Shown here one piece after another: positions 1 to 19,458 of a DNA stretch of 23,583 bases. A program made the translations under genes and the position numbers. The notes below the pieces were generated by a model. It did no database searches. It was not told the DNA's origin and worked only from the letters and a program-made list of their open reading frames with translations. The DNA comes from a virus. Every line of letters starts with the position of its first letter. Positions within the stretch are counted from its first letter, which is position 1. The DNA lies in IMG/VR virus record IMGVR_UViG_3300023257_000470, positions 1-23,583 of that record, one strand, 5' to 3'.

Positions 1-3000
1 TGATTTTTTAAGTCCAGTAAATTCATAAGCTGGATCCCAACCACTCCATGCACCAGCACCAGTAATATCAATTATATCAAATTCATATGATCCAAAATCA
101 TCATTATAATCTACTTCTACAATTGTAATACTTTGACCACCATGTGATGTTGATGATATTACAACAAATGTTGATGTTCTGATTGGTTCAGATTCACATC
201 CATATGTATTGTCTTTTACTCTAAAATCAAATGTTGTTGCAGATGTAAGACCTGTAAATTCATTTGATGTTTGCCATAATGAATTATCATCAATTTCAAA
301 TGTATATGCACTTAAATTATCCCCATTATTTATATCATCAATTGTAATACCAAAAACACCATCATTATATGTTGGAGTTATTTGTGTTATTATATTTTCA
401 ATTGTATCAATAGTAATTTCTTCACGATATTCATTAGCATCACCATCTAATATTGATACTTCATATGTTCCACCAGTTAAATTTCCAAAATAATTTCCCT
501 CATAATATGTTGATCCTGTTGTATATCTATATTTAGATATTCCACCAAAGGCATATACTGTAATATCCCCGGTAGGTATTAATGAACAAGAAGGTGTAGA
601 TTCATATAAAAATTCAATATCAAATTTTTCTTCATTCATTTCAAAATCATAAAATGATGTACATCCAGAAACATCTTCTATATATACTTGCCAATTTCCA
701 ATAGTTAATCCACTTATATATGGACTTGATTGATATGCACAATGACCTTCAACTTTATATTGATATGGTGATAATCCTCCATCAATATCATGTATATATA
801 TTAATCCATTATTACAAGTTGTGCAAGTAGGGTTATATATATCTATTTGAAATATTATTGGTTCAGTATATAATGTTATTTGTGTTGATGAAATACATGA
901 TAAATAATCTATAATATATATATTATAAACACCATTTGGTAAATCAAAATATTCTTCATAACTATAATTAGCACCATCATAACAACCAATTACAAATGAC
1001 CCCCCTGTACTAAAATAAAAATCGCTGCCATATGGTACTCCTGAAACTGAAATCATACCATCGCTTAATAAATTACAACTTGGATTAATCGTTGATGCAC
1101 TAATAGTTATTGGTTGTTTTTCTTGAATATTAGTTACTGCTGAATTTTCATATCCATTTGAATCTTTTACCCAACAAATATAAGTCCCTGCTGTTAAATT
1201 TTCATATAAATTATCATATAAAAATATTGGATAATTACCAGTATCCCCACTTAAACTATATTGATATTGTGGTATTCCACCAGTTGCATATATCTGAATT
1301 CTTCCATTTGTTGTATATGGACATATTGGAGTTGTTGTCGAAACAGAATATATTTCTAAATATGCTGGTTGATTAACAGTAATTCCAGAAATTGATATAT
1401 AACATCCATTTGCATCACTAATAATTAAGGTATAAGCTGTACTTGAAGCAGTTATACCAGTTAATAAATTATTATTTATTTGTATAATTTCTAATAATGT
1501 ATCATCATATGATATACCAGTAAGATTATATTGATATGGTAATGTTCCCCCACTCATATTTATTGTAATAAAACCATCATTATTACCATAACCTGTTGGA
1601 TCAGTTATATCTATTGAAGAAATTCCTAATTGTCCTGGTTCATTAACAGTGACATAATATGATGCTGTTGATTTCGTATCATCTTTTACAGATACAAAAT
1701 ATGTTCCACCTGTTAAATTTTCAAATATTCCTGTTGTGTTTATGTATCCTGTTGGAGTAATAGTATATAAATATGGTAATGTTCCTCCAGATGCAGTAAC
1801 ATAAATGGCACCATCTTGATTATTATAACAACTTACTCCACTAATTATTGTATTTATACTAATAGAATATGGATTATAATTTAAATTATCTAATTCAAGA
1901 GGTCTTGGTTTCATTGTTTTTTTATCAACACCAATATCTATTAATTCTATTGGTATAATATTTAAATTGCCATCAATATGAGTAAATCCAGAATTCATAA
2001 TCATATTAAAAATATTTAAATTAAATTTATCATTTTCATCTTGATATAAAATTCCAGTTGCATAATCTAAAATGTTAGTATCAGTTTTTATAATCTGACC
2101 ATATGCACCAGATATTCTATATCTTTCAGAATCAGATTTATTCTTATAATATTCTTGATCATAGTTTAAATATACTTTCATTAAAATATCAGATATACCA
2201 CTTAATGAAACAACATTGGTAATATCATAAATTCCACTACTTATCCCACTTGCAGTTAAATCATTATAAGGTTTTTCAATAATCATATAATCTTCTGTAA
2301 CTTCAGTAATCATTGTTCTTCCACTTGTATCCCCAGTTGCGAAAAAATCTATATAAGTATATGAATTAAAATCTTCTAATTTATTTAAATATGCTGTTAA
2401 TGGTGTAATTTTATATCTTGAACTTTGAACTGCATAATATGTTTCTAATGTAGAATAAATTTCTTCAATAGTATATTCTCCTGAATATAAAATATCTCCT
2501 GAATATATAGTTGTTGGTGTTGTCCCACTTTCTGCAATAAATATATCATTAATAAATGTTTCTAAATTATAATTAGCATATAAATTATCTGTTGAAAATG
2601 TAGAAATTGTTTCAGTAACTCCAGATTCTGAATATAAAAATGATAATAAATTATAATCAAAATATTTATAATAATCATTATCATTTACATTTATTTCAAA
2701 ATTAAATCCTGATACAGATGCAGTTATTAATTTTCCATATGGTGATGCATTAATATATTCTATAAATTGTGTTAAACCAGATTCAGCAAAATGTAAATTT
2801 CTAATTTTATAAGAATAACCAGTTGATAAATTATTATAAATATATTCTGGAATATTTCCATTTATTTCCAATTTATTATTATCTAAACTTTTAATTGTAG
2901 TAAAATAATTTAAATAAGCAGTATTTAATATATTTTCTGTTACTATTGATGTAGTTGCAGTTGTGTTATATAGAGTTATTAATATATGTTCATTAGTTGA

Positions 3001-3900
3001 AGAACTTGCAGAAAAAATACTATCTACATCAAAATATGTACCACCAGTAGTAAAATCAAAGGTTCTTGCAGAAACAGTATTCCCAGATGAAATATAAAAT
3101 AACCCAATATCAAGAATATTAGATATATTATATGTATCAGAATTTAAATACTTTATATCTAAAGTATTTCCCGTTTGATTGAAATCAAATGTAATAGTTT
3201 CAAATTCAGTTATATTATTTTTTAATGTTCTTGCAATATCATAATTTGTGAATATTAAAGAAGCAGTATCTCCTGTAATATTATAATCAAATTTATGTTT
3301 AATAATATATGAATGATATGGTGTAAAATATTTTGCTTCATTAGTAATTGGAAATGTTATCCCTGAATTTTCTAAAAAATATTGATTTTCTTTATATGTT
3401 CCTAATTTTATATAAAATTTTGATTTACTAGATGTTCCAGTTGTTTCAAGTAAATCTGATTTTTCTAAAAAATAATTTTGTGTTACATCATAAATATCAT
3501 TATCCATTATGTTATCTTGATTAAATAATAATATTTTATGATTTGGTTTAATTTCAACATTATCTATTTTATAATGAGTAATTCCAGTATCAATATTTAT
3601 ATCACTTGCAATATCAATAAGATGGAAATTTTGTAAATATTTGTCTATAATATTATATTCATTATACATATTATTTAATGTGTTTCCATCACCAGTTAAT
3701 AAAGATATCTTATAGATGTTATTAATATCATTAATATATGAATAACAAATACCATCTAAACATTTTTGGTATTTAAAATAAATATCCATTGTATTAGCAC
3801 TATTTATAGGTAAATAGTTACGATCTTCTAAAATAAAATTTGTAGTTCCAGTTTTTGCTATTGTATTGAAATTAAATTCAGTTCTAAAATTATATGTCAT
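1..3900 (-). CDS. SprB-repeat virion adhesin/tail protein, 3' end outside window
   Basis: An uninterrupted minus-strand frame runs from ATG at 3898-3900 to the window edge (1300 codons, no stop seen). Residues 1 to about 670 are a Gly/Ser/Thr- and Tyr/Asn-rich region without a recognised domain. From about residue 675 there are at least six repeats of 70-100 residues. Each has the SprB-repeat form: a Cys- or Pro-led strand, DG-x-I, then GGTLPYxY-like, L-x-GTY and a D-x-x-GC/GY turn; for example ASGGTLPYLY, NLTGGTYFVSV and ISDANGCYISI. SprB repeats are known from Bacteroidota gliding adhesins and large surface proteins. In a phage this size and composition suggest a long tail fibre, whisker or other adhesin; that role is inference. 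There is no signal peptide, which argues against a bacterial exported adhesin. It is transcribed away from 4009, with a promoter-like box at 3921-3930. Plus-strand ORFs inside it are shadows. Confidence 0.85.
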   Translation of the reverse strand, partial: MTYNFRTEFNFNTIAKTGTTNFILEDRNYLPINSANTMDIYFKYQKCLDGICYSYINDINNIYKISLLTGDGNTLNNMYNEYNIIDKYLQNFHLIDIASDINIDTGITHYKIDNVEIKPNHKILLFNQDNIMDNDIYDVTQNYFLEKSDLLETTGTSSKSKFYIKLGTYKENQYFLENSGITFPITNEAKYFTPYHSYIIKHKFDYNITGDTASLIFTNYDIARTLKNNITEFETITFDFNQTGNTLDIKYLNSDTYNISNILDIGLFYISSGNTVSARTFDFTTGGTYFDVDSIFSASSSTNEHILITLYNTTATTSIVTENILNTAYLNYFTTIKSLDNNKLEINGNIPEYIYNNLSTGYSYKIRNLHFAESGLTQFIEYINASPYGKLITASVSGFNFEINVNDNDYYKYFDYNLLSFLYSESGVTETISTFSTDNLYANYNLETFINDIFIAESGTTPTTIYSGDILYSGEYTIEEIYSTLETYYAVQSSRYKITPLTAYLNKLEDFNSYTYIDFFATGDTSGRTMITEVTEDYMIIEKPYNDLTASGISSGIYDITNVVSLSGISDILMKVYLNYDQEYYKNKSDSERYRISGAYGQIIKTDTNILDYATGILYQDENDKFNLNIFNMIMNSGFTHIDGNLNIIPIELIDIGVDKKTMKPRPLELDNLNYNPYSISINTIISGVSCYNNQDGAIYVTASGGTLPYLYTITPTGYINTTGIFENLTGGTYFVSVKDDTKSTASYYVTVNEPGQLGISSIDITDPTGYGNNDGFITINMSGGTLPYQYNLTGISYDDTLLEIIQINNNLLTGITASSTAYTLIISDANGCYISISGITVNQPAYLEIYSVSTTTPICPYTTNGRIQIYATGGIPQYQYSLSGDTGNYPIFLYDNLYENLTAGTYICWVKDSNGYENSAVTNIQEKQPITISASTINPSCNLLSDGMISVSGVPYGSDFYFSTGGSFVIGCYDGANYSYEEYFDLPNGVYNIYIIDYLSCISSTQITLYTEPIIFQIDIYNPTCTTCNNGLIYIHDIDGGLSPYQYKVEGHCAYQSSPYISGLTIGNWQVYIEDVSGCTSFYDFEMNEEKFDIEFLYESTPSCSLIPTGDITVYAFGGISKYRYTTGSTYYEGNYFGNLTGGTYEVSILDGDANEYREEITIDTIENIITQITPTYNDGVFGITIDDINNGDNLSAYTFEIDDNSLWQTSNEFTGLTSATTFDFRVKDNTYGCESEPIRTSTFVVISSTSHGGQSITIVEVDYNDDFGSYEFDIIDITGAGAWSGWDPAYEFTGLKKS

Positions 3901-7108: not shown

Positions 7109-8008
7109 ATGTCGAGAAAATTAACTAATGAACAATTTATTGAAAAAGCTATGAATATTCATAATAATAAATATGATTATTCTTTAGTTAAATATATCAA
7201 TTCAAAAACCAAAGTAAAAATAATTTGTCCAATTCATGGAGTATTTGAACAAAGTTCTCAAAAACATTTACATAATAAAAGAGGTTGTCAAAAATGTGGT
7301 GGATCAAAAAAATTAACAACAGAAGAATTTATTAATAAATCTAATATAATTCATAATAATAAATATGATTATTCATTAGTTAATTATATTAATAATTCTA
7401 TAAAAGTGAAAATAATTTGTCCTATTCATGGTGAGTTTTATCAAAATCCAAATAATCATATATCTAAAAAATATGGTTGTTCAAAATGTAGTAATAATAG
7501 AAAATTAACAACAAAAGAATTTATTGTCAAATCTGATAAAATTCATAATAATAAATATGATTATTCATTAGTTAATTATATTAATGCACACACTAAAGTT
7601 GAAATTATTTGCCCTATTCATGGATTGTTTAAACAATCTGCAAATAGTCATATGAGAGGTATTAATTGTCCAAAGTGTAGTGAAAGTAAAGGAGAAAAAG
7701 TAATATCAAAATTATTAAACATAAATAAAATCAACCATATAAGACAACAAAGATTTAAAAATTGTAAAGATAAAAGAACTTTACCATTTGATTTTTATTT
7801 ACCTAATTATAATTTGTGTATTGAATTTGATGGTCAACAACATTTTGAATTATTTAATAATTTTTGGGGTGGTAACAAAACTCTAAAATTAACTCAAAAA
7901 CATGATGAAATAAAAAATCAATATTGTCTTGATAATAATATTAAATTAATAAGAATAAAATATAATGAAAATATTGAAGAAAAATTCAATTCAATATTTA
8001 ATATATAA
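7109..8008 (+). CDS. EDxHD-type homing endonuclease with three zinc-ribbon repeats
   Basis: 299 residues. Three tandem repeats of about 65 residues (roughly 5-65, 68-130 and 131-190) each read F-I-x-K-x-x-x-IHNNKYDYSLVxYIN, then CPIHG and finally CxxC (CPKC in the last). This gives a CxxH plus CxxC zinc-binding set per repeat and presumably DNA recognition. The C-terminal domain (192-299) starts SKGEKVIS. It carries FDFYLP (D228), IEFDGQQHF (E239, D241, H245) and QKHDEIKNQYC (H265, D266), the layout of the Vsr-like EDxHD homing nucleases found free-standing in phages. It would cut DNA at a target in genomes lacking the gene. It is flanked by a 24-bp direct repeat; the right copy includes the stop codon. 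A paralogue lies at 12969-14051. Confidence 0.85.
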   Translation: MSRKLTNEQFIEKAMNIHNNKYDYSLVKYINSKTKVKIICPIHGVFEQSSQKHLHNKRGCQKCGGSKKLTTEEFINKSNIIHNNKYDYSLVNYINNSIKVKIICPIHGEFYQNPNNHISKKYGCSKCSNNRKLTTKEFIVKSDKIHNNKYDYSLVNYINAHTKVEIICPIHGLFKQSANSHMRGINCPKCSESKGEKVISKLLNINKINHIRQQRFKNCKDKRTLPFDFYLPNYNLCIEFDGQQHFELFNNFWGGNKTLKLTQKHDEIKNQYCLDNNIKLIRIKYNENIEEKFNSIFNI

Positions 8009-8834: not shown

Positions 8835-11126
8835 ATGTTAAAATATAAATCATTTTCAGATAAATTATTTGAATCAGCTCCAAGAATACCAATATCAGAA
8901 GATTATTGGATTAAAAAAGGTAAAATAGGTAAAGAAGTAATGTTATTTTTTCACGATGATCTTGATGGGATCTTTTCTGCTGTAGCAATGAAAAATTATT
9001 TATTAGGTAAAGGATTCAAACTTCATGGTTATGGGATTGTAAATTATCAAGAAGGTTGGTCAACAACTGAACTAGATGACAAATATATTAATATAGCATT
9101 AGATTATGCTGAAAATGTTGACGGTATTAATATTTATATGGATCATCATGGTGAATTTATGGAAGAAGATAATGAAGAAAGAAATAGAGGAGAAGGTGCG
9201 GTTAAAACAGATACTGGTTCTGCATATGAAGGTATTATGGATCAATTAGGATTACCAATTGATTCAGGTATTCTAAATGTAATTGATATGGTAGATTCAG
9301 CCAAATATGATGATTATAAGATTAAACAGGAAGTTTTATTAAAATTTGATCCAGGAAGTTTTAAAAATAAATTAGAATTTGCTGCAGCATTTAATCAATT
9401 ATTAAAAAGAAGTGATCATAGAACATTTATAGAAGTTGTAGCAAATTCAAAAGATATTGCACCAAGTATTTATAATATTTATAGATTATTTAGATTATTA
9501 TATCCTGCAAATAATTTAAATATTTGGGATCTTAAAAAAGCTGCAAAACAAGCCGAATATTTAGATAATAATGGAAAACCTGATGTACCAGCATATTTAG
9601 AACATTTAAAATTATATAATAGAAAATTATTAAAATCTTTTGAGAAAGATTTTATTGGTGATGCAAGATGGAGGTTAGGACAAATGCAAAAAAAGACAAG
9701 AGGTTATAATAGAAAAGAATATATTAGAAATCAAACACAATTTCAAGAAAATTTTACAAAAGCTTCAAAATATGGGAGACCAATAATAAAATTAGATGGT
9801 TATCAAATACTTGGAACTATGGTTTTTGTTCCATCTGGTACTTGGGCAAATGCATTAAGAGCTCGTTCAATATTTGAAACAGATACTGAAATAATTAATG
9901 AATTTAATAAACAATTTAATGAAGATAGAGTTCCTACAATTGAATATAATGTTTTAAAAGAGAGTCCAATATATAATAAACTTGAGCCGATAATTGGTCA
10001 AAAAGTAGAATTAACAGGAGATTTAGATTATCAAAATAATCCTACAATTAAAATAACTAAAAATGTAACTACTGATTCATCTATTGAAGGTATTACAGGT
10101 TTTTTATCTAGAAATAAAGAAAAGGGTATAGTATTTAGAGCAAAACAACCAATATTTTGGATATTATTACAATATGGTAACACATTACAAGTTTGTTCAT
10201 ATCATAAATTAGATAAATATCCTAAAGAATATTTACCAAAAACAAAAGATGGGAAAAATATAACAAATTTGGGAAAATACACACAAGATTTATTATATAA
10301 TATGGCTAAATACTTTGGTTATAATATTAATATAATACCTGAAACAACAACAAAAGCTGGTGGTCATGTTGGTATTGGTTCTATTTCAAATATTTTTGGT
10401 AAAGTACAAAATGATCAAAATATAGTACCAGAACCTGGAACTAAAAATAGTCAAATACATATTTCAAATAAATCATTTATGAAAAAATATTATAATACTC
10501 GATTTTTAGATTTAATTAAAAATAAAATGATTGAAGATTTATCTGGAATACCTTGGGGAAATTTAAAAATGACTTGGGGAGATCCTGAAGAAACACCAAA
10601 AACTAAACCAAAAACATCTGAAATGAATAAAAAAGTTGTATTAGCTGATGAAATTAGAAAAGAAAAAGATGTGATTCGGGGTAATAAAGAATTAAAAGAA
10701 CCAGAAGATTCAAATGATGATAAAATAATACCAATATCTCTCGAACTCCCAACAAGACAAGTAGTTGAAAATAAAAAAACAAAACCAAGAAAACCTAAAT
10801 ATAATCCAGTAAGAATGATAGATAAAAAATATGCAGATGACTATGGACAAAAAATGAAAAAATATAGAGAATGGGAAGATCAAAAAAATCTTTTAAGAGA
10901 GTTTAATTCATACACACAACAAGTATTAGATTTTATTGATTATCCTTGGCAAGAAGATAATGAAATAGAATTTGTATCTTTATTAGATGAATACAGAGAA
11001 GAAATAGAAAAAAATATTAAATATGATATTAAAAATTATTTAAAATCTATGAATAAAGAAAATCAAACTCAACTTTTACACATGTCTGATGGGTTTCTTA
11101 CTGCATTTGAAAATTTACTTAAATAA
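8835..11126 (+). CDS. DHH/DHHA1 family phosphoesterase, capsid-targeting-like leader
   Basis: 763 residues. The N terminus MLKYKSFSDKLFE|S fits the packaged-protein leader pattern (possible cut after E13). DHH-family metal motifs follow: FFHDDLDG at 38-45, YMDHHGEF at 101-108 (the DHH signature) and VIDMVDSAKYDD at 149-160. A DHHA1-like substrate-binding motif, KAGGHVGIGSIS, appears near 507. Between them lies a large insertion, and a Lys/Pro-rich, probably helical tail follows residue 560. DHH enzymes use two metals to hydrolyse phosphodiesters; members include RecJ exonuclease, nanoRNases and cyclic-dinucleotide phosphodiesterases. At 763 residues it is much longer than NrnA-type enzymes. 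Substrate is unknown. If packaged it would act very early after infection. It begins 12 nt after the endonuclease and lacks its own TATATA box, so it may share transcripts with the genes upstream. Confidence 0.8.
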   Translation: MLKYKSFSDKLFESAPRIPISEDYWIKKGKIGKEVMLFFHDDLDGIFSAVAMKNYLLGKGFKLHGYGIVNYQEGWSTTELDDKYINIALDYAENVDGINIYMDHHGEFMEEDNEERNRGEGAVKTDTGSAYEGIMDQLGLPIDSGILNVIDMVDSAKYDDYKIKQEVLLKFDPGSFKNKLEFAAAFNQLLKRSDHRTFIEVVANSKDIAPSIYNIYRLFRLLYPANNLNIWDLKKAAKQAEYLDNNGKPDVPAYLEHLKLYNRKLLKSFEKDFIGDARWRLGQMQKKTRGYNRKEYIRNQTQFQENFTKASKYGRPIIKLDGYQILGTMVFVPSGTWANALRARSIFETDTEIINEFNKQFNEDRVPTIEYNVLKESPIYNKLEPIIGQKVELTGDLDYQNNPTIKITKNVTTDSSIEGITGFLSRNKEKGIVFRAKQPIFWILLQYGNTLQVCSYHKLDKYPKEYLPKTKDGKNITNLGKYTQDLLYNMAKYFGYNINIIPETTTKAGGHVGIGSISNIFGKVQNDQNIVPEPGTKNSQIHISNKSFMKKYYNTRFLDLIKNKMIEDLSGIPWGNLKMTWGDPEETPKTKPKTSEMNKKVVLADEIRKEKDVIRGNKELKEPEDSNDDKIIPISLELPTRQVVENKKTKPRKPKYNPVRMIDKKYADDYGQKMKKYREWEDQKNLLREFNSYTQQVLDFIDYPWQEDNEIEFVSLLDEYREEIEKNIKYDIKNYLKSMNKENQTQLLHMSDGFLTAFENLLK

Positions 11127-11155: not shown

Positions 11156-11183
11156 AGGTCAAAAGTATCAACTTTTGACCTTT
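11156..11183 (+). terminator. Hairpin terminator after the DHH gene
   Basis: AGGTCAAAAGT (11156-11166) pairs perfectly over 11 bp with ACTTTTGACCT (11171-11181) around a 4-nt loop, followed by TTATTTGTTTAT. The T-tract is interrupted, but position and stem support termination. Confidence 0.75.
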
Positions 11184-11188
11184 ATTTG

Positions 11189-11198
11189 TTTATATATA
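11189..11198 (+). promoter_or_regulatory. TATATA-type promoter box of the 11221 gene
   Basis: TTTATATATA followed by GACAAAAATAAA, 22 nt before ATG at 11221. As at 5604, it sits directly behind a terminator. Confidence 0.5.
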
Positions 11199-11220: not shown

Positions 11221-12129
11221 ATGATTTATAATAAAGAAAAAATTGAGAAAATTCACAACAAATATGTAAATGATGAAAAAATAAAAAGAACAGAAAAAAT
11301 ATATTATAATAATATTATAGGATTAAGAACATCTAATATTGTTTATGATTATAATCATGAAGAATTAATAGAATATGCAAAATGTTTTTCAGATGAAATT
11401 TATTTTATTGAGAATTATTTTCATATCAAATTACATTCATATCAGATAAAAATAATTGAACATTATAAAAATAATAGATTTAGTATTTTTATGAATTCAA
11501 GACAAACTGGAACATTTTCAATATTAATAATGTTATTCATTCATTCAATGATTTTTAATCAAGATTATAGTATATTAAAAATTGATCATAAAATAATGGA
11601 AAATATAGAACATTTTAAAAAAATAAAAAAATTATATATTCAATTACCATTTTTTTTACAAATTGGAGTTACAAATTGGAATTTAAAAGATATTAAATTA
11701 GAAAATAAAAGTTTTTTTCAATTACAATCTTCAAAAAATATAGGACTTGGATATAATCCAAGTTTATTTATAATTAATAATTTTTCACAAATACCAGATA
11801 GTTATATTTATGATATATATAATTCTATAATTCCAACTATTTCTTCTCAGAAAAATAATAAATTTATTATATCATCAAGACCAAATGGTTATAATTTCTT
11901 TCTTAATCTTGTAGAAAATTCAGAAAGAAGTGATAATGATCCATTAAAAAATAACTATAATACATTACGAACTTATTGGTGGCAAATTCCTGGTCGAGAT
12001 GAAAAATGGAAAGATGAAGTAATTAAAAAAATTGGATATGAATTATTTTTACAAGAATATGATTTAAGTTTTATGACTAAACAAAATTTAGAAAGAAGTA
12101 AAAAATTAAATAAAATATTAGGTATTTAA
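11221..12129 (+). CDS. Terminase large-subunit ATPase-domain relative with lost catalytic residues
   Basis: 302 residues, about half the length of a T4 gp17-like terminase (near 600); the C-terminal nuclease domain is absent. The ATPase-domain path is clear: the adenine/Q-motif region LHSYQIKIIEHY, Walker A position MNSRQTGTFS (91-100), then LPFFLQIGVTNWN, SKNIGLGYNPSLFIINNFSQIP (Walker B at 181-188), SSRPNGYNFF (C-motif at 218-223) and WWQIPGRDEKW. Where gp17 has SRQLGKT this protein has SRQTGTF, so the Walker A Lys is gone. Where gp17 has the Asp-Glu pair of Walker B it has Asn-Asn. It therefore should not hydrolyse ATP. The frame is intact with its own promoter box, so it looks like a retained paralogue rather than debris. 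It converges on the small terminase gene 19 bp away. A regulatory or packaging role is inference. Confidence 0.75.
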   Translation: MIYNKEKIEKIHNKYVNDEKIKRTEKIYYNNIIGLRTSNIVYDYNHEELIEYAKCFSDEIYFIENYFHIKLHSYQIKIIEHYKNNRFSIFMNSRQTGTFSILIMLFIHSMIFNQDYSILKIDHKIMENIEHFKKIKKLYIQLPFFLQIGVTNWNLKDIKLENKSFFQLQSSKNIGLGYNPSLFIINNFSQIPDSYIYDIYNSIIPTISSQKNNKFIISSRPNGYNFFLNLVENSERSDNDPLKNNYNTLRTYWWQIPGRDEKWKDEVIKKIGYELFLQEYDLSFMTKQNLERSKKLNKILGI

Positions 12130-12148: not shown

Positions 12149-12964
12149 TTATTCTTTTTCTTTTAATTTAAATGTACCATTTAACATTTGTTCTAATAAT
12201 GTTGGGTCATCTTTTATTTGATCAAATACATCATTTAATAATTTTGGGTCCCCTATAATAGTATAATTATCTTCATCAGATATTTCTGATTCTTCTTCTC
12301 CTTGATTAATATCTACTAATTCTTCTTTTAATTCTTTATAAAATTCTTTCATTTTCTTTTGCAAATCATAAGTCATTTTGATAGTATCTCTCATCTCCTT
12401 TTGAAACATTGCAACGGATTGATACATCAGAGGATCATTTACACCGAGATCTAATTGAGTCATGCAAGAAATTAATGCACGTTTTGCCATACTAATTGAA
12501 AAATTTAAATCAGATAAAGAATCAGAATCATTTTTTATTATTTTATATATGTTTTTATTTTTCATATTATCTGGGGTTAAATATAAATTTGCTAAACATT
12601 CTAATGTTTCTTTTGAATCAATTTTAATTAATTCTATATCTTTATCATAATCATACACTTCTACAGCTAAATCTAATCCAGGTAATAAATCTGGTTCTGG
12701 AAACATTTCTTCGGGATGATTTATTGTATCTAACATTGATGAAATATTACCTTTTAATTCTTCAACTGAATCACTTATTTCATTTGGAGTTCTTTGATAA
12801 TCAGATGGGACATATTTATCAGAATTAATATTATCTGTTATCTTTTGTTCATTTTGTTCAAATTCAAATTCTTCTTGATTTTCTTCTTCAATATTTTCTT
12901 TTTTATCATTTTTTATATTTTCAAATTCATCATTAATATTGAAAAAATCATCTGTTTCATTCAT
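12149..12964 (-). CDS. Terminase small subunit, T4 gp16-like
   Basis: 271 residues. An acidic, probably disordered N terminus (1-90) precedes LLPGLDLAVEVYDYDKDIEL at 93-112, which parallels the region after the start of T4 gp16. Next is a helical core, NFSISMAKRALISCM...MYQSVAMFQKEM, then TYDLQKKMKEFYKEL (154-212), corresponding to the gp16 oligomerisation coiled coil. Last is DNYTIIGDPKLLNDVFDQI...LEQMLNGT (232-264), matching the gp16 C-terminal segment with its GSP-x-x-L and ING pattern as I recall it. Small terminases recognise DNA and regulate the gp17 motor. It begins 4 nt after the stop of the EDxHD endonuclease gene and probably belongs to the same minus-strand unit. It is longer than T4 gp16 (164 residues), mostly through the acidic N terminus. 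Confidence 0.7.
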   Translation of the reverse strand: MNETDDFFNINDEFENIKNDKKENIEEENQEEFEFEQNEQKITDNINSDKYVPSDYQRTPNEISDSVEELKGNISSMLDTINHPEEMFPEPDLLPGLDLAVEVYDYDKDIELIKIDSKETLECLANLYLTPDNMKNKNIYKIIKNDSDSLSDLNFSISMAKRALISCMTQLDLGVNDPLMYQSVAMFQKEMRDTIKMTYDLQKKMKEFYKELKEELVDINQGEEESEISDEDNYTIIGDPKLLNDVFDQIKDDPTLLEQMLNGTFKLKEKE

Positions 12965-12968
12965 ATTT

Positions 12969-14051
12969 TTAAATTATTTCTTTAAGTTTATCACCTATTT
13001 TTTCATTATATTTAATTCGTAATAATTTAATATTATTATCAAAACAATATTTATTTTTTATTTTATCTCGTTTTTGTGTATTTTTTAATCCTTTTTCATC
13101 ACCAAAATATTGAATAGCTTCAAAATGTTGTTTTCCATCAAATTCTACACATAAATTATAATCAAGCAAATAAAAATCAAATAATAATTGATTAATATAT
13201 TTACAATTTTTAAATTTTTTCTGTCTTATATATTTAATATTATTTTTATCTAATATTTTAGATATTTCTTTTTCACCTTTACTTTCATTACATATTGGAC
13301 AACCTGTATTTTTGTTAATATGATTAGATGAATCTGTAATGAATTTACCGTGTTTTTTACATATTATTGTAATATTTTTATGTGATCCATCATATTTTGA
13401 AAAAGAATAATCATATTTATCATTATGTATTTTTTTTGCTTTAATTATATATTCAGAAGTAGAATATTTTTTTGTTCCATAACAATATGGACATCCTTTT
13501 CCACTTAAATGACTTGTTGGAGTTTGAGTAAATATATTATCACATTTATTACATTTTATTTTAATTTTTGTTCTATTATTTTTATATTCACATAAATCAT
13601 AATTATAATGATTTTTATGAATTTTTTTAAAATTTTCAATTATTTCTATTTTCAATTTTTTATATCCACTACATCTTGAACAACCATGACCATTTAAATG
13701 AACTTTTGCATATTGTTCAAATTCTCCATGTAAAGGACAAATAATTTTTATTTTTGTATTTTTATTTTTATATTTTATTAATGTATAATCAAATTTATTA
13801 TTATGAATTATGTTTGCTTTTTTGATAAATTCTTCTTTTGTCATTTTGTATCTTTTACTACATTTAGAACAACCTTTCCCTTGTAAATGATTTCCTGGAG
13901 ATTGTTCAAATATTCCATGTATTGAACATATTATTCTAATTTTTAAACAAGCATTAACATAATTAACTAATGAATAATTATATTTATTACCGTGAATTTT
14001 TTTGGCATTCTTTATAAATTTTTTAGTTTTTATAATATCATTTTCATTCAT
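12969..14051 (-). CDS. EDxHD-type homing endonuclease with four zinc-ribbon repeats
   Basis: 360 residues, paralogous to the 7109 gene. Four repeats (about 8-68, 69-130, 131-193, 194-256) share IHxNKYDYSL, a CSIHG/CPLHG (or CNKC, CKKH) pair and a GC-x-x-C pair. One repeat (CNKCDN) swaps His for Cys, still a plausible zinc site. The nuclease domain has SKGEKEIS, FDFYLL (D292), VEFDGKQHF (E303, D305, H309) and TQKRDKIKNKYC, where RD replaces the HD seen in the other copy. It sits between the Mre11-Rad50 fusion and the small terminase, a common kind of position for free-standing homing genes next to replication or packaging genes. Its start (ATGAATGAAAATGAT) mimics that of the terminase (ATGAATGAAACAGATGAT). 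A TATATA box lies 18 nt upstream. Confidence 0.85.
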   Translation of the reverse strand: MNENDIIKTKKFIKNAKKIHGNKYNYSLVNYVNACLKIRIICSIHGIFEQSPGNHLQGKGCSKCSKRYKMTKEEFIKKANIIHNNKFDYTLIKYKNKNTKIKIICPLHGEFEQYAKVHLNGHGCSRCSGYKKLKIEIIENFKKIHKNHYNYDLCEYKNNRTKIKIKCNKCDNIFTQTPTSHLSGKGCPYCYGTKKYSTSEYIIKAKKIHNDKYDYSFSKYDGSHKNITIICKKHGKFITDSSNHINKNTGCPICNESKGEKEISKILDKNNIKYIRQKKFKNCKYINQLLFDFYLLDYNLCVEFDGKQHFEAIQYFGDEKGLKNTQKRDKIKNKYCFDNNIKLLRIKYNEKIGDKLKEII

Positions 14052-14242: not shown

Positions 14243-17200
14243 TTAATATGTTATTTTTAATGAACTTATACCTTTATCATCTTTAAGAACTTCAATTAAT
14301 GCATCAAAATTAATTGGATGATTATGTTCAATTATAATTATTTTATCTATTTTATCTTTCATTTTTTCTAACATATCTTTAAAATATCCAATAGATTTAT
14401 TAACTAATTTTCCTGTAATTTCATCAAGTAATAAAAAATTAGGTTTAGATTTATGATTTATTGTTCTTAAAGCTAATTTTAAAGCTATTGCAGAAAATGT
14501 TCTTTCAGCACCAGATCCTTCTAACAAATTTTGAACAATGTCTTGTGCGAATTCCATATACATTTTCAAATTTAACTTTTCATCAAAAAAAATATTAAAA
14601 TCAACTGTTGATAATAAATCTGACAATTCCTGATTAATTAAATCTTTTGATTTCATTAATAAAAATGTTGGTATACCATCTCTATGAACACATCTTTGAT
14701 ATTCTTTTAAAATTTCTTCAAGATGAACTTGTTTCTTATATTTTTCCATATTTTCAGAAATATCTAATATCGAATTTTCAATTATATTAATATTATTAAT
14801 AGTTTCATTTATATTTGAATTTAAATCTTCTATTTCATTTTTAAATTTATTTATCTTTCCATCATATTCATTTATTTTCTCATTTATTAATTGATTTTGT
14901 TCAATAAATTTTATATGGTTATAATATTTGTTAATTTTTTCTTCTGCATTTTCAATAGTCAATTTTATATTAGCTATTTTTAAAGAAAGTTCATTATTAT
15001 TATATAAAAAAGTTTCATATGTTCTACTTTCCTCTTTATCTTTTTGAATTTTGTTGATATCATCTTGTGTATTAGATTTTTCAATACTTTTTTCTTTCAC
15101 TCTTTTATTACCTTCTGATTTTAACTTAATATTTTTTTCAATTTTTTCTTCAAGAATATTTTGTTCTTCAGTTATTTTATCAATATTCAATTTTAATTCT
15201 TTTGAAAATATATTCTTTTTGATATTTTTACATATATTATTTATTTCATCTATCTCATCTGATTTATCATCAATTTTTAAAATTATCTCATTTTTAAATT
15301 TTTCAATTTTAGAAGAATAAACACCAGTTTCTAAATTTTCTATTTTTTCTTTTAATTCTGAATTTAATTTTGTTTTTTCTTTTAATTCTAATTGATATTT
15401 TTTAACATCTGGCATTAAATCTTCAATTTGTTGTTTTAATTGAGATATTTTTTCTTTTATATTATGTTCATTGTTTTCTTCATAAGGTCTAAAACAAGTA
15501 GGACAAATTGTAGATTCTTCTATTTCTTTAATTCTTTTCTTTAATTCAATTCCTTTTTCTTTAATATTAGATAATTCTTGTTTTATAGATTTTATTTTAA
15601 ATTTAATATCTGTTCTTTTATCAATTATTTTTCTTTTTTCATTATTAAGATAATTTTCAAATTCATTATTTAATTTATCAATTTCAATTTCAATATTTTT
15701 CAATATCATTTTTTGTTTTGTGATATCTTTGTCTTTCAATTGTTCTTTTTTTAACTCTAAATTTTTAACATTATTATCTAATGTTGAATTTTTTGAATCT
15801 AATTGAGATAATTTTAATTTTAAATTTAAAATATGGTCATCAAGAGTTTTTAATGATTTTAAGAGAGTTTCATACTGTTCTTTATCATATGATATTTTTA
15901 GTGTTAACATAGTCTTAGAGTTGATCTTTTGTTGATTTAAATTGATCTTAATAGTATTTTGATACTCTTTAATTTTTTCATTAATATTATCAATATTTAG
16001 TTTTGAAACATCATCATCTATCTTATTTAATTTCTTAAATTCATTATCTCTATCAGTATTAAAAATACTTAAAGAAAAAGTAACTCCGGATTTTTCTTCA
16101 ATAAAATCTAACTTTTCTTTTTGATATGTTCTTAACATTTGAGATAGTTTATTCATTTCAATTTCTGTATCAGATAAATTTAAAGAAATTTTATTAACTA
16201 CAATTTCTTTCTTATAATCTTTAAATACTGCTAATTTTTTTTCAAATATATCATAACCTGCATCTCTAATAATTGAATCTATAAATGTTGCTCTATCTAT
16301 TGATATTAAATCATTTAAATTTTCTGAATTGATTAAAGCCAATCTAATAAAATCTGAAAAATCACCAACAATAGCATTTATCATTAATTGAGTTTCAGTT
16401 TTTCTTTCTCCTCTTAATTTTTTCTCCTCTTTTATTTCAATACCAAGATAATAATTAACATCTGTTGATACTGATTTGATTGTTTCTTTTGATGTCCAGG
16501 ATCTAATAGTTTCTCTTAAAACTGTGTATTGTTGACCATTTATATTTATAATCATTCCACCTGAACAATTATCAAGATTTCTTTTATTATTTATATAACG
16601 ATTATCACCAAATTTCTCTGTTTTACCACCACCTAATTTATTAGTTGCTAATGTTGTCCCATGAGTGATATAACAAATACCATCAAGAAGAGTTGTTTTG
16701 CCCATTTGATTTTCTTCTGAATGTAATTGAATTATACCATGAATATCATTCCAATCAATTGTTTCTTTATTATATGATTTAAAATTATCTAACCAAAATT
16801 GTTCAATATTCCATTGAACATTATTAGTAGTTGTTGATAATTCTAATCTATCATTAATAATATCATCAATATTTAAAATTTCATCAATAAAATCATCTTC
16901 AAATTTATTAGCTTTTAAGTATTCTTTAAAAATATTTTGTTGAATTATTTTATCATTAACATTTATAGATTCATTTAAAGAATCACTTGATATAATATCT
17001 GAATAAATTCTTGTTTTTTCATAAACAACTTCATCAATATCGAATTTATTTTTAATATATTTATTAATTTTTCTTTCATTTTCATTATTTACATTAGAAG
17101 TATAATCTGTCCATTTTATCTTAACTTTTGATTTATTAGTTATTAATTTATGATTAAAATCAATCAAATCATAATCATAATCTTTATTTATTTCAAATGT

Positions 17201-17947
17201 AATTTTTGTATAATCATTTTGTAAATTGTATTCCTTATATGATATATTTTTGTTTTCATCTATTTCCCATAATATAAAACCATGATTATTAGTTTTTTCA
17301 CCAAAAGATAATTGTATTAATGAACCAGGATATGCCGTAGTATCATTAAAAAATTGTCTAAGATGAATATCCCCAAATAAATTTAAATCGTTATTTTTAA
17401 ATTCTGATAATTTAATTAAATTCTTACTATTCATATTAATTCCAGTAGGTAATTTACTACCAAAAACAGGATCATGAAATAATCCAATATAAATTTTGTT
17501 TTTATCTTTATTATGTTGTATATTTTTCCAAGGAATAATTCTTTTTTCCAAATGAGAATAATTAACCCATATTATATCTTCTGAATTATCTTCAAAAAAT
17601 CCACTTTTATCTAAAAAAACAATATTTCTGTTATTCATCATTTTCACAATTGAACCAATTGATGAAACTCTTTTTAAATCTTTTTTACGAATTTCGTGAT
17701 TTCCTGGGACAACAATAACTTCACAATAATTAGATAATTTATCAAGTAATTCTGATGCTAATGTTTCTGATTCTAATGTGGTTGTTATAAAGGCATCTAA
17801 TGTATCACCCACTATTACAATTTTATCAGGTTTTATTATATCTAATTCTTTATATAATTTTTGAAATTGTTCTCTATATTTATAATGTTCTTCAGGATTA
17901 TTTACTATATGTACATCTGCAATATGTACTATTTTAATTTTATTCAA
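14243..17947 (-). CDS. Fused Mre11-Rad50 (SbcD-SbcC; T4 gp47-gp46) recombination nuclease
   Basis: 1234 residues in one frame. Residues 1-230 are an Mre11/SbcD metallophosphatase: ADVH (D11, H13), GDTLDA (D48), PGNHE (N83, H84), FHDP (H158) and FGDIH (D193, H195). Residues 240-375 form a linker with helices typical of Mre11's Rad50-binding part. From about 378 a Rad50/SbcC ATPase follows: FWLDNFKSYNKETIDW, Walker A SEENQMGKTT (410-419), a long coiled coil, a zinc hook CPTC at 815-818, the returning coil, an LEGSGAERT signature (1143-1151), Walker B FLLLDE (D1175, E1176) and the IIIIEHNHP switch. These complexes resect double-strand breaks and load phage recombination; in T4 they are two genes. 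The start is TTG, overlapping the TGA of the upstream RHH gene (TTGA); no in-frame ATG is near. A stop lies two codons upstream of the TTG. Confidence 0.9.
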   Translation of the reverse strand: MNKIKIVHIADVHIVNNPEEHYKYREQFQKLYKELDIIKPDKIVIVGDTLDAFITTTLESETLASELLDKLSNYCEVIVVPGNHEIRKKDLKRVSSIGSIVKMMNNRNIVFLDKSGFFEDNSEDIIWVNYSHLEKRIIPWKNIQHNKDKNKIYIGLFHDPVFGSKLPTGINMNSKNLIKLSEFKNNDLNLFGDIHLRQFFNDTTAYPGSLIQLSFGEKTNNHGFILWEIDENKNISYKEYNLQNDYTKITFEINKDYDYDLIDFNHKLITNKSKVKIKWTDYTSNVNNENERKINKYIKNKFDIDEVVYEKTRIYSDIISSDSLNESINVNDKIIQQNIFKEYLKANKFEDDFIDEILNIDDIINDRLELSTTTNNVQWNIEQFWLDNFKSYNKETIDWNDIHGIIQLHSEENQMGKTTLLDGICYITHGTTLATNKLGGGKTEKFGDNRYINNKRNLDNCSGGMIININGQQYTVLRETIRSWTSKETIKSVSTDVNYYLGIEIKEEKKLRGERKTETQLMINAIVGDFSDFIRLALINSENLNDLISIDRATFIDSIIRDAGYDIFEKKLAVFKDYKKEIVVNKISLNLSDTEIEMNKLSQMLRTYQKEKLDFIEEKSGVTFSLSIFNTDRDNEFKKLNKIDDDVSKLNIDNINEKIKEYQNTIKINLNQQKINSKTMLTLKISYDKEQYETLLKSLKTLDDHILNLKLKLSQLDSKNSTLDNNVKNLELKKEQLKDKDITKQKMILKNIEIEIDKLNNEFENYLNNEKRKIIDKRTDIKFKIKSIKQELSNIKEKGIELKKRIKEIEESTICPTCFRPYEENNEHNIKEKISQLKQQIEDLMPDVKKYQLELKEKTKLNSELKEKIENLETGVYSSKIEKFKNEIILKIDDKSDEIDEINNICKNIKKNIFSKELKLNIDKITEEQNILEEKIEKNIKLKSEGNKRVKEKSIEKSNTQDDINKIQKDKEESRTYETFLYNNNELSLKIANIKLTIENAEEKINKYYNHIKFIEQNQLINEKINEYDGKINKFKNEIEDLNSNINETINNINIIENSILDISENMEKYKKQVHLEEILKEYQRCVHRDGIPTFLLMKSKDLINQELSDLLSTVDFNIFFDEKLNLKMYMEFAQDIVQNLLEGSGAERTFSAIALKLALRTINHKSKPNFLLLDEITGKLVNKSIGYFKDMLEKMKDKIDKIIIIEHNHPINFDALIEVLKDDKGISSLKITY

Positions 17948-18414: not shown

Positions 18415-19458
18415 ATGAAAAAAAGATGCATATATTCGTATGAATTTGATAATAATTATGTCTATATTGGATTAACTTGCAATATTAAAAATAGACAATA
18501 TAAACATAAAACAGAAAAAAATAGTGCTGTGTATCAACAACTAAATATATGTAGTGGATACACATTTAAAATTTTAACTGATTATTTACCAGTAGAAATA
18601 GCAAAAATAAAAGAAGGAGAATATGTTGAAATATATAAGAATAATAATTGGAATATCTTAAATAAGATTGGTACTGGTTCTATTGGAGGAATAATTATTA
18701 AATGGACATATGAAAAATGTAAAGAAACATCATTAAAATACAAAACAAGAAAAGATTTAAAAAATGAATATTTGGGATGTTATTTAAGAATACAACGAGA
18801 AAAATGGACAGAATTATTTGAACATATGGTTAATGCAAGTTTAATATGGGATAAAAAATCAATTTTAAATGACCTTAAAAAATATAAAACTTATTCTGAA
18901 TATAGAAAATCAAAATCATATAGGATAGCAGTAAAAAATAATATGTTAACTGAAATTTCTAAACATTTTAAAATAAAACCACATAAACAACATAATTATT
19001 GGTCATATAATAGATGTAAAGAAGAAGCATTAAAATATGATAAAAAATCAGATTTAAGCAAAAATTCTCCAAGTGCTTATTCATCAATAAGATTACATGG
19101 TTGGTTAGATGAATTATGTTCTCACATGATTAAATTAAGAAAATCAAATGGATATTGGACTTATGATAAATGTCAAGAAGAAACATTAAAATACAATAAC
19201 TTAAAAGATTTTATGAATGATTCTTGTGGATGTTATTATAAATGTTATAAAAATAATTGGTTAGAAGAATTATGTACACATATGAATTATAAAAAAAGAA
19301 AATCTCCAAATTTTAATTGGACAAAAGAAGAATGTAAAGAAGAAGCATTAAAATATAATAATAGATATGATTATTGTAGATATACTGGTTCTTATAAAAT
19401 AGCATTAAAAAATAAATGGTTAAATGATATATGTTCTCATATGATAATAAAAAAATAA
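18415..19458 (+). CDS. GIY-YIG homing endonuclease with repeated DNA-binding motifs
   Basis: 347 residues. The N-terminal nuclease domain (1-90) shows IYSYEF (6-11) and VYIGLT (16-21) for the GIY and YIG strands, then R27, H31, an Asp/Glu-rich turn with E67/E69 as candidate metal ligand, and NNWNILN. The rest contains five repeats of about 45-50 residues. The best formed is W-T/S-Y-x-x-CKEEALKYxxxxDF...KNxWLxELCSHM, near 100-135, 140-175, 185-225, 230-275 and 295-347; the second has diverged (lost the CKEEALKY part). Such repeats are common in phage GIY-YIG homing proteins and presumably bind DNA. It follows an RHH gene by 1 nt and ends 20 bp from a convergent gene. It is a mobile element by itself and need not help the phage. 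Confidence 0.8.
   Translation: MKKRCIYSYEFDNNYVYIGLTCNIKNRQYKHKTEKNSAVYQQLNICSGYTFKILTDYLPVEIAKIKEGEYVEIYKNNNWNILNKIGTGSIGGIIIKWTYEKCKETSLKYKTRKDLKNEYLGCYLRIQREKWTELFEHMVNASLIWDKKSILNDLKKYKTYSEYRKSKSYRIAVKNNMLTEISKHFKIKPHKQHNYWSYNRCKEEALKYDKKSDLSKNSPSAYSSIRLHGWLDELCSHMIKLRKSNGYWTYDKCQEETLKYNNLKDFMNDSCGCYYKCYKNNWLEELCTHMNYKKRKSPNFNWTKEECKEEALKYNNRYDYCRYTGSYKIALKNKWLNDICSHMIIKK

Follow-up and report, generated by a model that had tools for sequence, protein, structure and literature searches.

Introduction

A viral packaging motor is pictured as a ring in which every subunit is the same and active. T4 motors still work with inactive TerL subunits in the ring, but they start more slowly, run at lower speed and pause more often (PMC8589836); those subunits were laboratory full-length point mutants (Q163A), whereas the protein described here is a natural truncated paralogue. 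The small terminase, TerS, acts on the TerL ATPase (PMC9958956), and the TerL nuclease domain is thought to face the portal (PMC9410871). Lambda gpA has a lysine before the classical Walker A place and HK97 has a second critical lysine (PMC9410871), and a citing passage in PMC5727402 refers to Mitchell and Rao (2004) for deviant terminase Walker A motifs. In addition, Avs1-Avs4 recognize TerL and portal, and TerL triggers Avs immunity (PMC12931631).

The window, by which we mean the whole 23,583-base stretch analyzed here, is a fragment and makes up the entire record for this virus. Its nearest relatives are the Mahaphage-clade huge phages W01 (LR756501, 735 kb), W03 (LR756502, 642 kb), W04 (LR756504, 636 kb) and W05 (LR745206, 634 kb), plus W02 (LR756500, 462 kb). 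The first four records appear to be the published Mahaphage-clade genomes (clade name and genome sizes, PMC7162821). By inspection of ORF starts, window 12-23 kb resembles W01 719-733 kb gene for gene.

Results and Discussion

An intact gene for a truncated TerL ATPase domain

An initial annotation of the window had read an intact 302-codon gene for a catalytically dead terminase ATPase domain, and the frame was found at exactly those coordinates, with its ATG at 11221 and its stop at 12129. The gene and its motifs are laid out as follows, with the basis for each call in brackets:

11221..12129, + strand: truncated, predicted ATPase-dead paralogue of the gp17-type TerL ATPase domain, 302 aa (homology, model, motif alignment)
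11497..11520, + strand: Walker A site SRQTGTFS, K166->T and T167->F, lysine absent nearby (alignment to T4 gp17)
11776..11781, + strand: Walker B Asp-Glu replaced by Asn-Asn (alignment to T4 gp17)
11872..11880, + strand: coupling (C) motif SSR in place of TST/TTT (alignment to T4 gp17)
11956..12090, + strand: lid/linker-proximal segment, residues 246-290, best kept among the dead copies (pairwise identity by region)

The annotated likeness to the gp17 ATPase domain was borne out at two levels. By sequence, the protein matched the family model phrog_5989 (E=2e-25) and T4 gp17 itself (E=6e-22), so that its homology to TerL lies far above chance; among Pfam models none matched at E<=1. For the AlphaFold model, which drew on 24 sequences (window and locus), mean pLDDT was 91 and pTM 0.87, and the best solved Foldseek match of the model was the gp17 ATPase domain (2o0h; E 1.8e-21, TM 0.76), in agreement with the structural similarity that the annotation had proposed to check. 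The window protein has in common with the gp17 ATPase domain (Pfam Terminase_6N / phrog_5989) the ASCE ATPase fold, the order of the motifs, the Q-motif Gln, SRQ-x-G and the lid/linker region, but unlike T4 gp17 it lacks the Walker A Lys, the Walker B Asp-Glu, the C-motif Thr and the nuclease domain. Its C-terminus is the ATPase-to-nuclease linker, confirming that the gene stops before the nuclease domain; the protein has no C-terminal RNase H-fold nuclease, and the next gene is that for TerS, on the opposite strand. We considered phrog_5989 as a family of dead copies and rejected this, as the family covers N-terminal halves of T4-type TerLs generally.

The catalytic motifs of the window copy are lost

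In T4 gp17 numbering, the window copy carries K166->T, T167->F, D255->N, E256->N and T287->R, and retains Q143, R162, Q163 and G165. It keeps 8/15 of the motif positions that are conserved in TerL versus 36/44 of the other conserved positions (Fisher p 0.04). The P-loop stretch (NRFSIFMNSRQTGTFSILIM) contains no lysine, which excludes a displaced-lysine Walker A too, there being no lysine at either place. From established terminase biochemistry, neither ATP hydrolysis nor DNA cutting is expected of such a protein. With the Walker A Lys, the Walker B Asp-Glu and the C-motif Thr all replaced, the window copy is dead as judged by its sequence, as the initial annotation had claimed.

Related huge phages carry a truncated copy and a full TerL

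One full TerL and one truncated TerL-ATPase copy were each found in three of the five huge-phage genomes (W01, W02 and W04), while in W03 and W05 full TerL only was detected. The copy immediately follows TerL in W02, is separated from it by about 90 kb in W01, and in W04 sits far from it, at the end of the linear record. Within IMG/VR, the L117 copy was 83-84% identical to that of W01 and had conserved flanking genes, the L118 copy was partial (64-69% identity), L119 was identical to the W02 copy, and L131 and L132 were identical to the W04 copy. About 75 other TerL matches retained GKT/GKS and DE. The flanks of 80 Mahaphage-type TerL loci held no further dead copies, and scanning of bacterial and archaeal genomes found no copies there. 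In the open-licence papers searched, we found no published description of truncated dead TerL copies.

No TerL was seen within the 23.6-kb record itself, and the true TerL of the window phage was looked for in the same sample and not found. Only 23.6 kb of this virus, a relative of the 735-kb Mahaphage, is covered by the window, so that its own TerL is out of view. The initial annotation had set a split or decayed only TerL against its own reading; this misfits the relatives, since W01, W02 and W04 each carry a separate full TerL. The full TerLs of Mahaphage-type phages (W01, W03, W04, W05; L039-L042) are the nearest relatives of the window copy in our tree, but unlike it they are about 705-775 aa long and have GKT, DE, STP and the nuclease. 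A further caution is that trees and counts of huge phages based on TerL can pick up second, non-motor copies.

Many Mahaphage-type full TerLs were broken at Walker A (K166|T167) by an apparent split intein: L018/L023 in W01, L019/L024 in W02 and many of L141-L220. The W01 halves are up to 13 kb apart, an endonuclease-like ORF lies between the halves in W02, and in about 28 of 80 loci the TerL C-half starts N|T at the K166|T167 site. At L165:2050-5370, a TerL C-half carries a second, LAGLIDADG-bearing intein in its nuclease part, in a 1,106-aa frame. A split or intein-interrupted TerL was rejected for the window gene: the W01 and W02 halves break at K166|T167, and the window ORF crosses this site without an intein.

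Two kinds of truncated copy

Closer reading of the motifs separated two kinds of copy. The W01, L117 and L118 copies have the Walker A sequence KSRQMGIT (K160), with Lys166 lost and D255 and E256 intact. The dead kind, which has no P-loop lysine, comprises the copies of the window (N160, T166, NN), W02 (S160, I166, DN) and W04 (N160, M166, MD), the latter two being the only others found that are as dead as the window copy. The C-motif Thr287 is lost in all six. The W01 kind is truncated at the same point as the window copy, has likewise lost Lys166 and Thr287 and occurs as a second copy beside a full TerL (shown for W01), but unlike the window copy it keeps K160, Asp-Glu and the Mahaphage TerL insertion. 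The window copy fits the features of the truncated-paralogue group, namely the end at the linker and the loss of Lys166 and Thr287. The initial annotation had proposed relatives with the same substitutions as a check, and this held in that W02 and W04 are equally dead but did not extend to W01, L117 and L118; we therefore rejected the view that all copies are equally dead, as the W01 kind has K160 with Asp-Glu. L222 and L223 were found together with the W01 kind and rejected as truncated copies, being full-length TerLs; the one at L223:5959-7554 has the Walker A sequence KGRQIGIST, with a displaced lysine.

A tree built from the ATPase region placed all of the six copies inside the clade of huge-phage TerLs, that of W02 not grouping with its own TerL. 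With long branches omitted, the window copy grouped with the W01/L040 TerLs (95/93). A single origin of all copies was neither shown nor rejected (AU p 0.24-0.45).

Because the W01, L117 and L118 copies keep a displaced lysine and Asp-Glu, they may still use ATP, and their motifs suggest that they may be active. Under this alternative, the truncated copies would be nucleotide users, with the W01 kind, a separate small ATPase, as the true state of the family and the window copy as a derived side branch. K160, D255 and E256 are kept in 3/3 copies of the W01 kind, which also shows purifying selection (see below), and deviant lysine places are known in lambda gpA and in the second-lysine terminase class including HK97 (PMC9410871; Mitchell and Rao 2004, as given in a citing passage of PMC5727402), although the off-place P-loop lysine is common to these and the W01 kind only. 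We consider this account very improbable, given that Thr287 is lost in every copy, that the window, W02 and W04 copies are without the lysine, and that a common origin of the two kinds has the ambiguous AU result above.

Gene neighborhood and origin of the window copy

The features that surround the gene are as follows:

7109..8008, + strand: treble-clef repeat protein with an endonuclease-like C-terminus, homing-type (DUF723, DUF4379)
8835..11126, + strand: DHH-like protein, 763 aa (gene convergent with and directly beside TerS in relative L135)
11156..11181, + strand: terminator-like hairpin between the upstream DHH gene and the dead TerL gene (z -4.35)
11189..11198, + strand: TTTATATATA promoter-like box (similar boxes precede other window genes)
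12149..12964, - strand: TerS-like protein, 271 aa, convergent with the dead TerL gene (synteny with full TerL in W03, W05 and W04)
12969..14051, - strand: treble-clef repeat/DUF559-like endonuclease, homing-type, abutting TerS (a similar gene in L139)

The identity of the convergent gene annotated as small terminase gained backing from synteny, as homologues of the 12149-12964 protein adjoin the full TerL in three huge-phage genomes (W03, W05 and W04). The protein matched phrog_735 weakly (E=0.04), its model shows a long helical hairpin at low confidence (pLDDT 63), and TerS identity between the window and W01 is 42.7%. A promoter box of its own had also been ascribed to the dead TerL gene: TTTATATATA does stand behind the hairpin, and the W02 copy has an upstream layout similar to this hairpin and box, but boxes of this type are weakly above chance (6 seen vs 2.26 expected; 6/100 shuffles gave as many).

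In L135 and L136, the TerS (63-70% identical to that of the window) and the DHH protein (55-57%) are again encoded close together. In both, the two genes are convergent neighbors with no TerL-like gene between them, one small gene intervening in L136. The window gene was therefore probably inserted, or else lost from these relatives, and its TerS neighborhood is probably the result of insertion. The TerS/dead-TerL block is flanked on either side by genes for homing-type endonucleases, and in L139 TerS is abutted by a gene similar to the 12969-14051 endonuclease. Because the window gene was apparently inserted, and the W01 and W04 copies lie far from TerL, we regard neighborhood as weak evidence of function.

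The two flanking genes, 7109-8008 and 12969-14051, are related to each other as treble-clef repeat endonuclease-like genes. The sequence L002 is identical to the window and has, inside a gene of this treble-clef repeat endonuclease type, a repeat of about 355 bases (79% identity).

Conservation, selection and the possibility of decay

Conservation was compared by region as pairwise identity. For Walker A, Walker B and the C-motif, the three dead copies had identities of 0.27, 0.25 and 0.36, versus 0.48, 0.58 and 0.72 in true TerLs, while the lid/linker-proximal segment reached 0.44 in the dead copies (n=3) and 0.42 in true TerLs. In this profile of three sequences, which are few, the best-conserved part of the dead kind is no longer the catalytic motifs but the lid/linker side.

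The dN/dS comparison that the initial annotation had proposed could be answered for one kind of copy: values of 0.137 (W01-L117, 390 codons), 0.128 (W01-L118) and 0.211 (L117-L118), against 0-0.31 for flanking genes in the same comparison, point to purifying selection in the W01 kind and concern that kind only, as the dead-kind copies found included no close pair. For the dead kind we relied on open frames and kept positions. In a neutral simulation started from a related TerL at the base composition of the window (82% A+T), 0/400 frames were open already at 84% identity, and the branch leading to the window copy has about 1.1 changes per site with 302 codons still open.

These data bear on whether the gene is in decay: part of a TerL that homing endonucleases or recombination moved here and that now drifts, functionless. 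Such a copy would be expected to look truncated and to have lost its motifs, as this one has; it sits among homing-type endonuclease genes, inserted between genes that are adjacent in relatives. Three other contigs have exactly the same DNA, the identical sequence occurring in samples 3300031227, 3300005915 and 3300005935, so that there is no polymorphism with which to test drift. We nevertheless find decay improbable. The frame has stayed open beyond the divergence at which no simulated neutral frame did, the conserved non-motif positions are mostly kept, the predicted fold is confident, the gene has its own promoter-like box and an upstream terminator, and two other equally dead copies are also open. 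We infer that selection retains the dead-kind copies. Their fast evolution would fit a regulator of the motor, but equally an accessory gene or one in an arms race.

A proposed binding mimic of TerL, and other possible roles

Since comparable truncated copies are retained by related huge phages that also have a working motor, the window copy probably acts by binding and not by pumping DNA. The reading that we favor, tentatively and with slightly less than even confidence, is that the window gene is a retained, non-catalytic mimic of TerL. It draws on the homology, the predicted fold, the motif losses, the presence of a truncated copy and a full TerL in three relatives, the open frames at great divergence and the shifted conservation. 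In its favor we count the position of the W02 copy directly behind TerL and of the window copy beside TerS; against it we count that its own TerL is unseen in the 23.6-kb record, that presence is patchy (none in W03 and W05) and that evolution is fast. The initial annotation had proposed a retained pseudo-motor that may bind the small terminase, portal or DNA. The intact dead ATPase domain and the relatives with both a truncated copy and a full TerL agree with retention, but the TerS neighborhood, which probably stems from insertion, adds little to it, and absence of the nuclease domain, the part thought to face the portal, argues against portal binding.

Since the T4 motor tolerates dead subunits and TerS acts on the TerL ATPase, a soluble look-alike could tune packaging through TerS/TerL, which we see as the likeliest target, though a doubtful one. 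In such a mechanism, a second copy of the TerL ATPase domain would have lost ATP hydrolysis and the nuclease and kept the fold. With its lid/linker-proximal face kept, the look-alike would compete for or modulate the partners of the true TerL, in the first place TerS and the TerL ATPase ring, and the result would be a tuning of when or where packaging starts.

TerL being a trigger of Avs immunity, a serious rival to the binding mimic is an immune decoy, in which a mimic of the TerL ATPase would occupy TerL-sensing receptors of the Avs/AVAST type without activating them and so shield the phage when the true TerL appears. The window model matches the Avs3-bound TerL in PDB 8dgc (rank 18, E 2.8e-7), as other TerLs do, and the gene's patchy occurrence and rapid divergence are what an arms race might produce. 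However, any TerL homologue would match 8dgc, and the window phage has no known receptor or host, leaving us to judge a decoy unlikely.

The same T4 data raise another use, a dominant-negative TerL domain that would enter or block the motors with which competing or superinfecting phages package their DNA. Doped-in dead subunits do impair T4 packaging (PMC8589836), and the gene behaves as an accessory gene of variable position. Yet the phage's own motor would also be at risk of harm, the window protein has neither hinge nor nuclease domain, and nothing indicates that it has diverged from its own TerL in particular, which lies outside the fragment. We consider such a poison quite improbable.

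A broader proposal, which we hold to be doubtful, is that some of the largest known phages keep a dedicated non-catalytic TerL homologue, either as a regulatory subunit of a heteromeric motor or as a decoy that blinds TerL-sensing receptors. If true, a protein derived from a terminase would in either case have taken on a new role. With a dead TerL domain that is natural and retained, it would also become possible for motor regulation by an inactive relative, or anti-Avs use, to be tested.

Other features of the window

At 18415-19458, an endonuclease-like start of GIY-YIG type was seen by eye, followed by repeats, with no Pfam match at E<=0.01. At 14243-17947 on the - strand, a fused SbcD-SbcC-like protein joins a metallophosphoesterase and an SMC-like ATPase in one 1,234-aa frame. 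Positions 1-3900, also on the - strand, hold a frame of at least 1,300 aa that runs off the left end and has repeated SprB/PKD-like segments by eye; its product resembles a large adhesin or structural protein.
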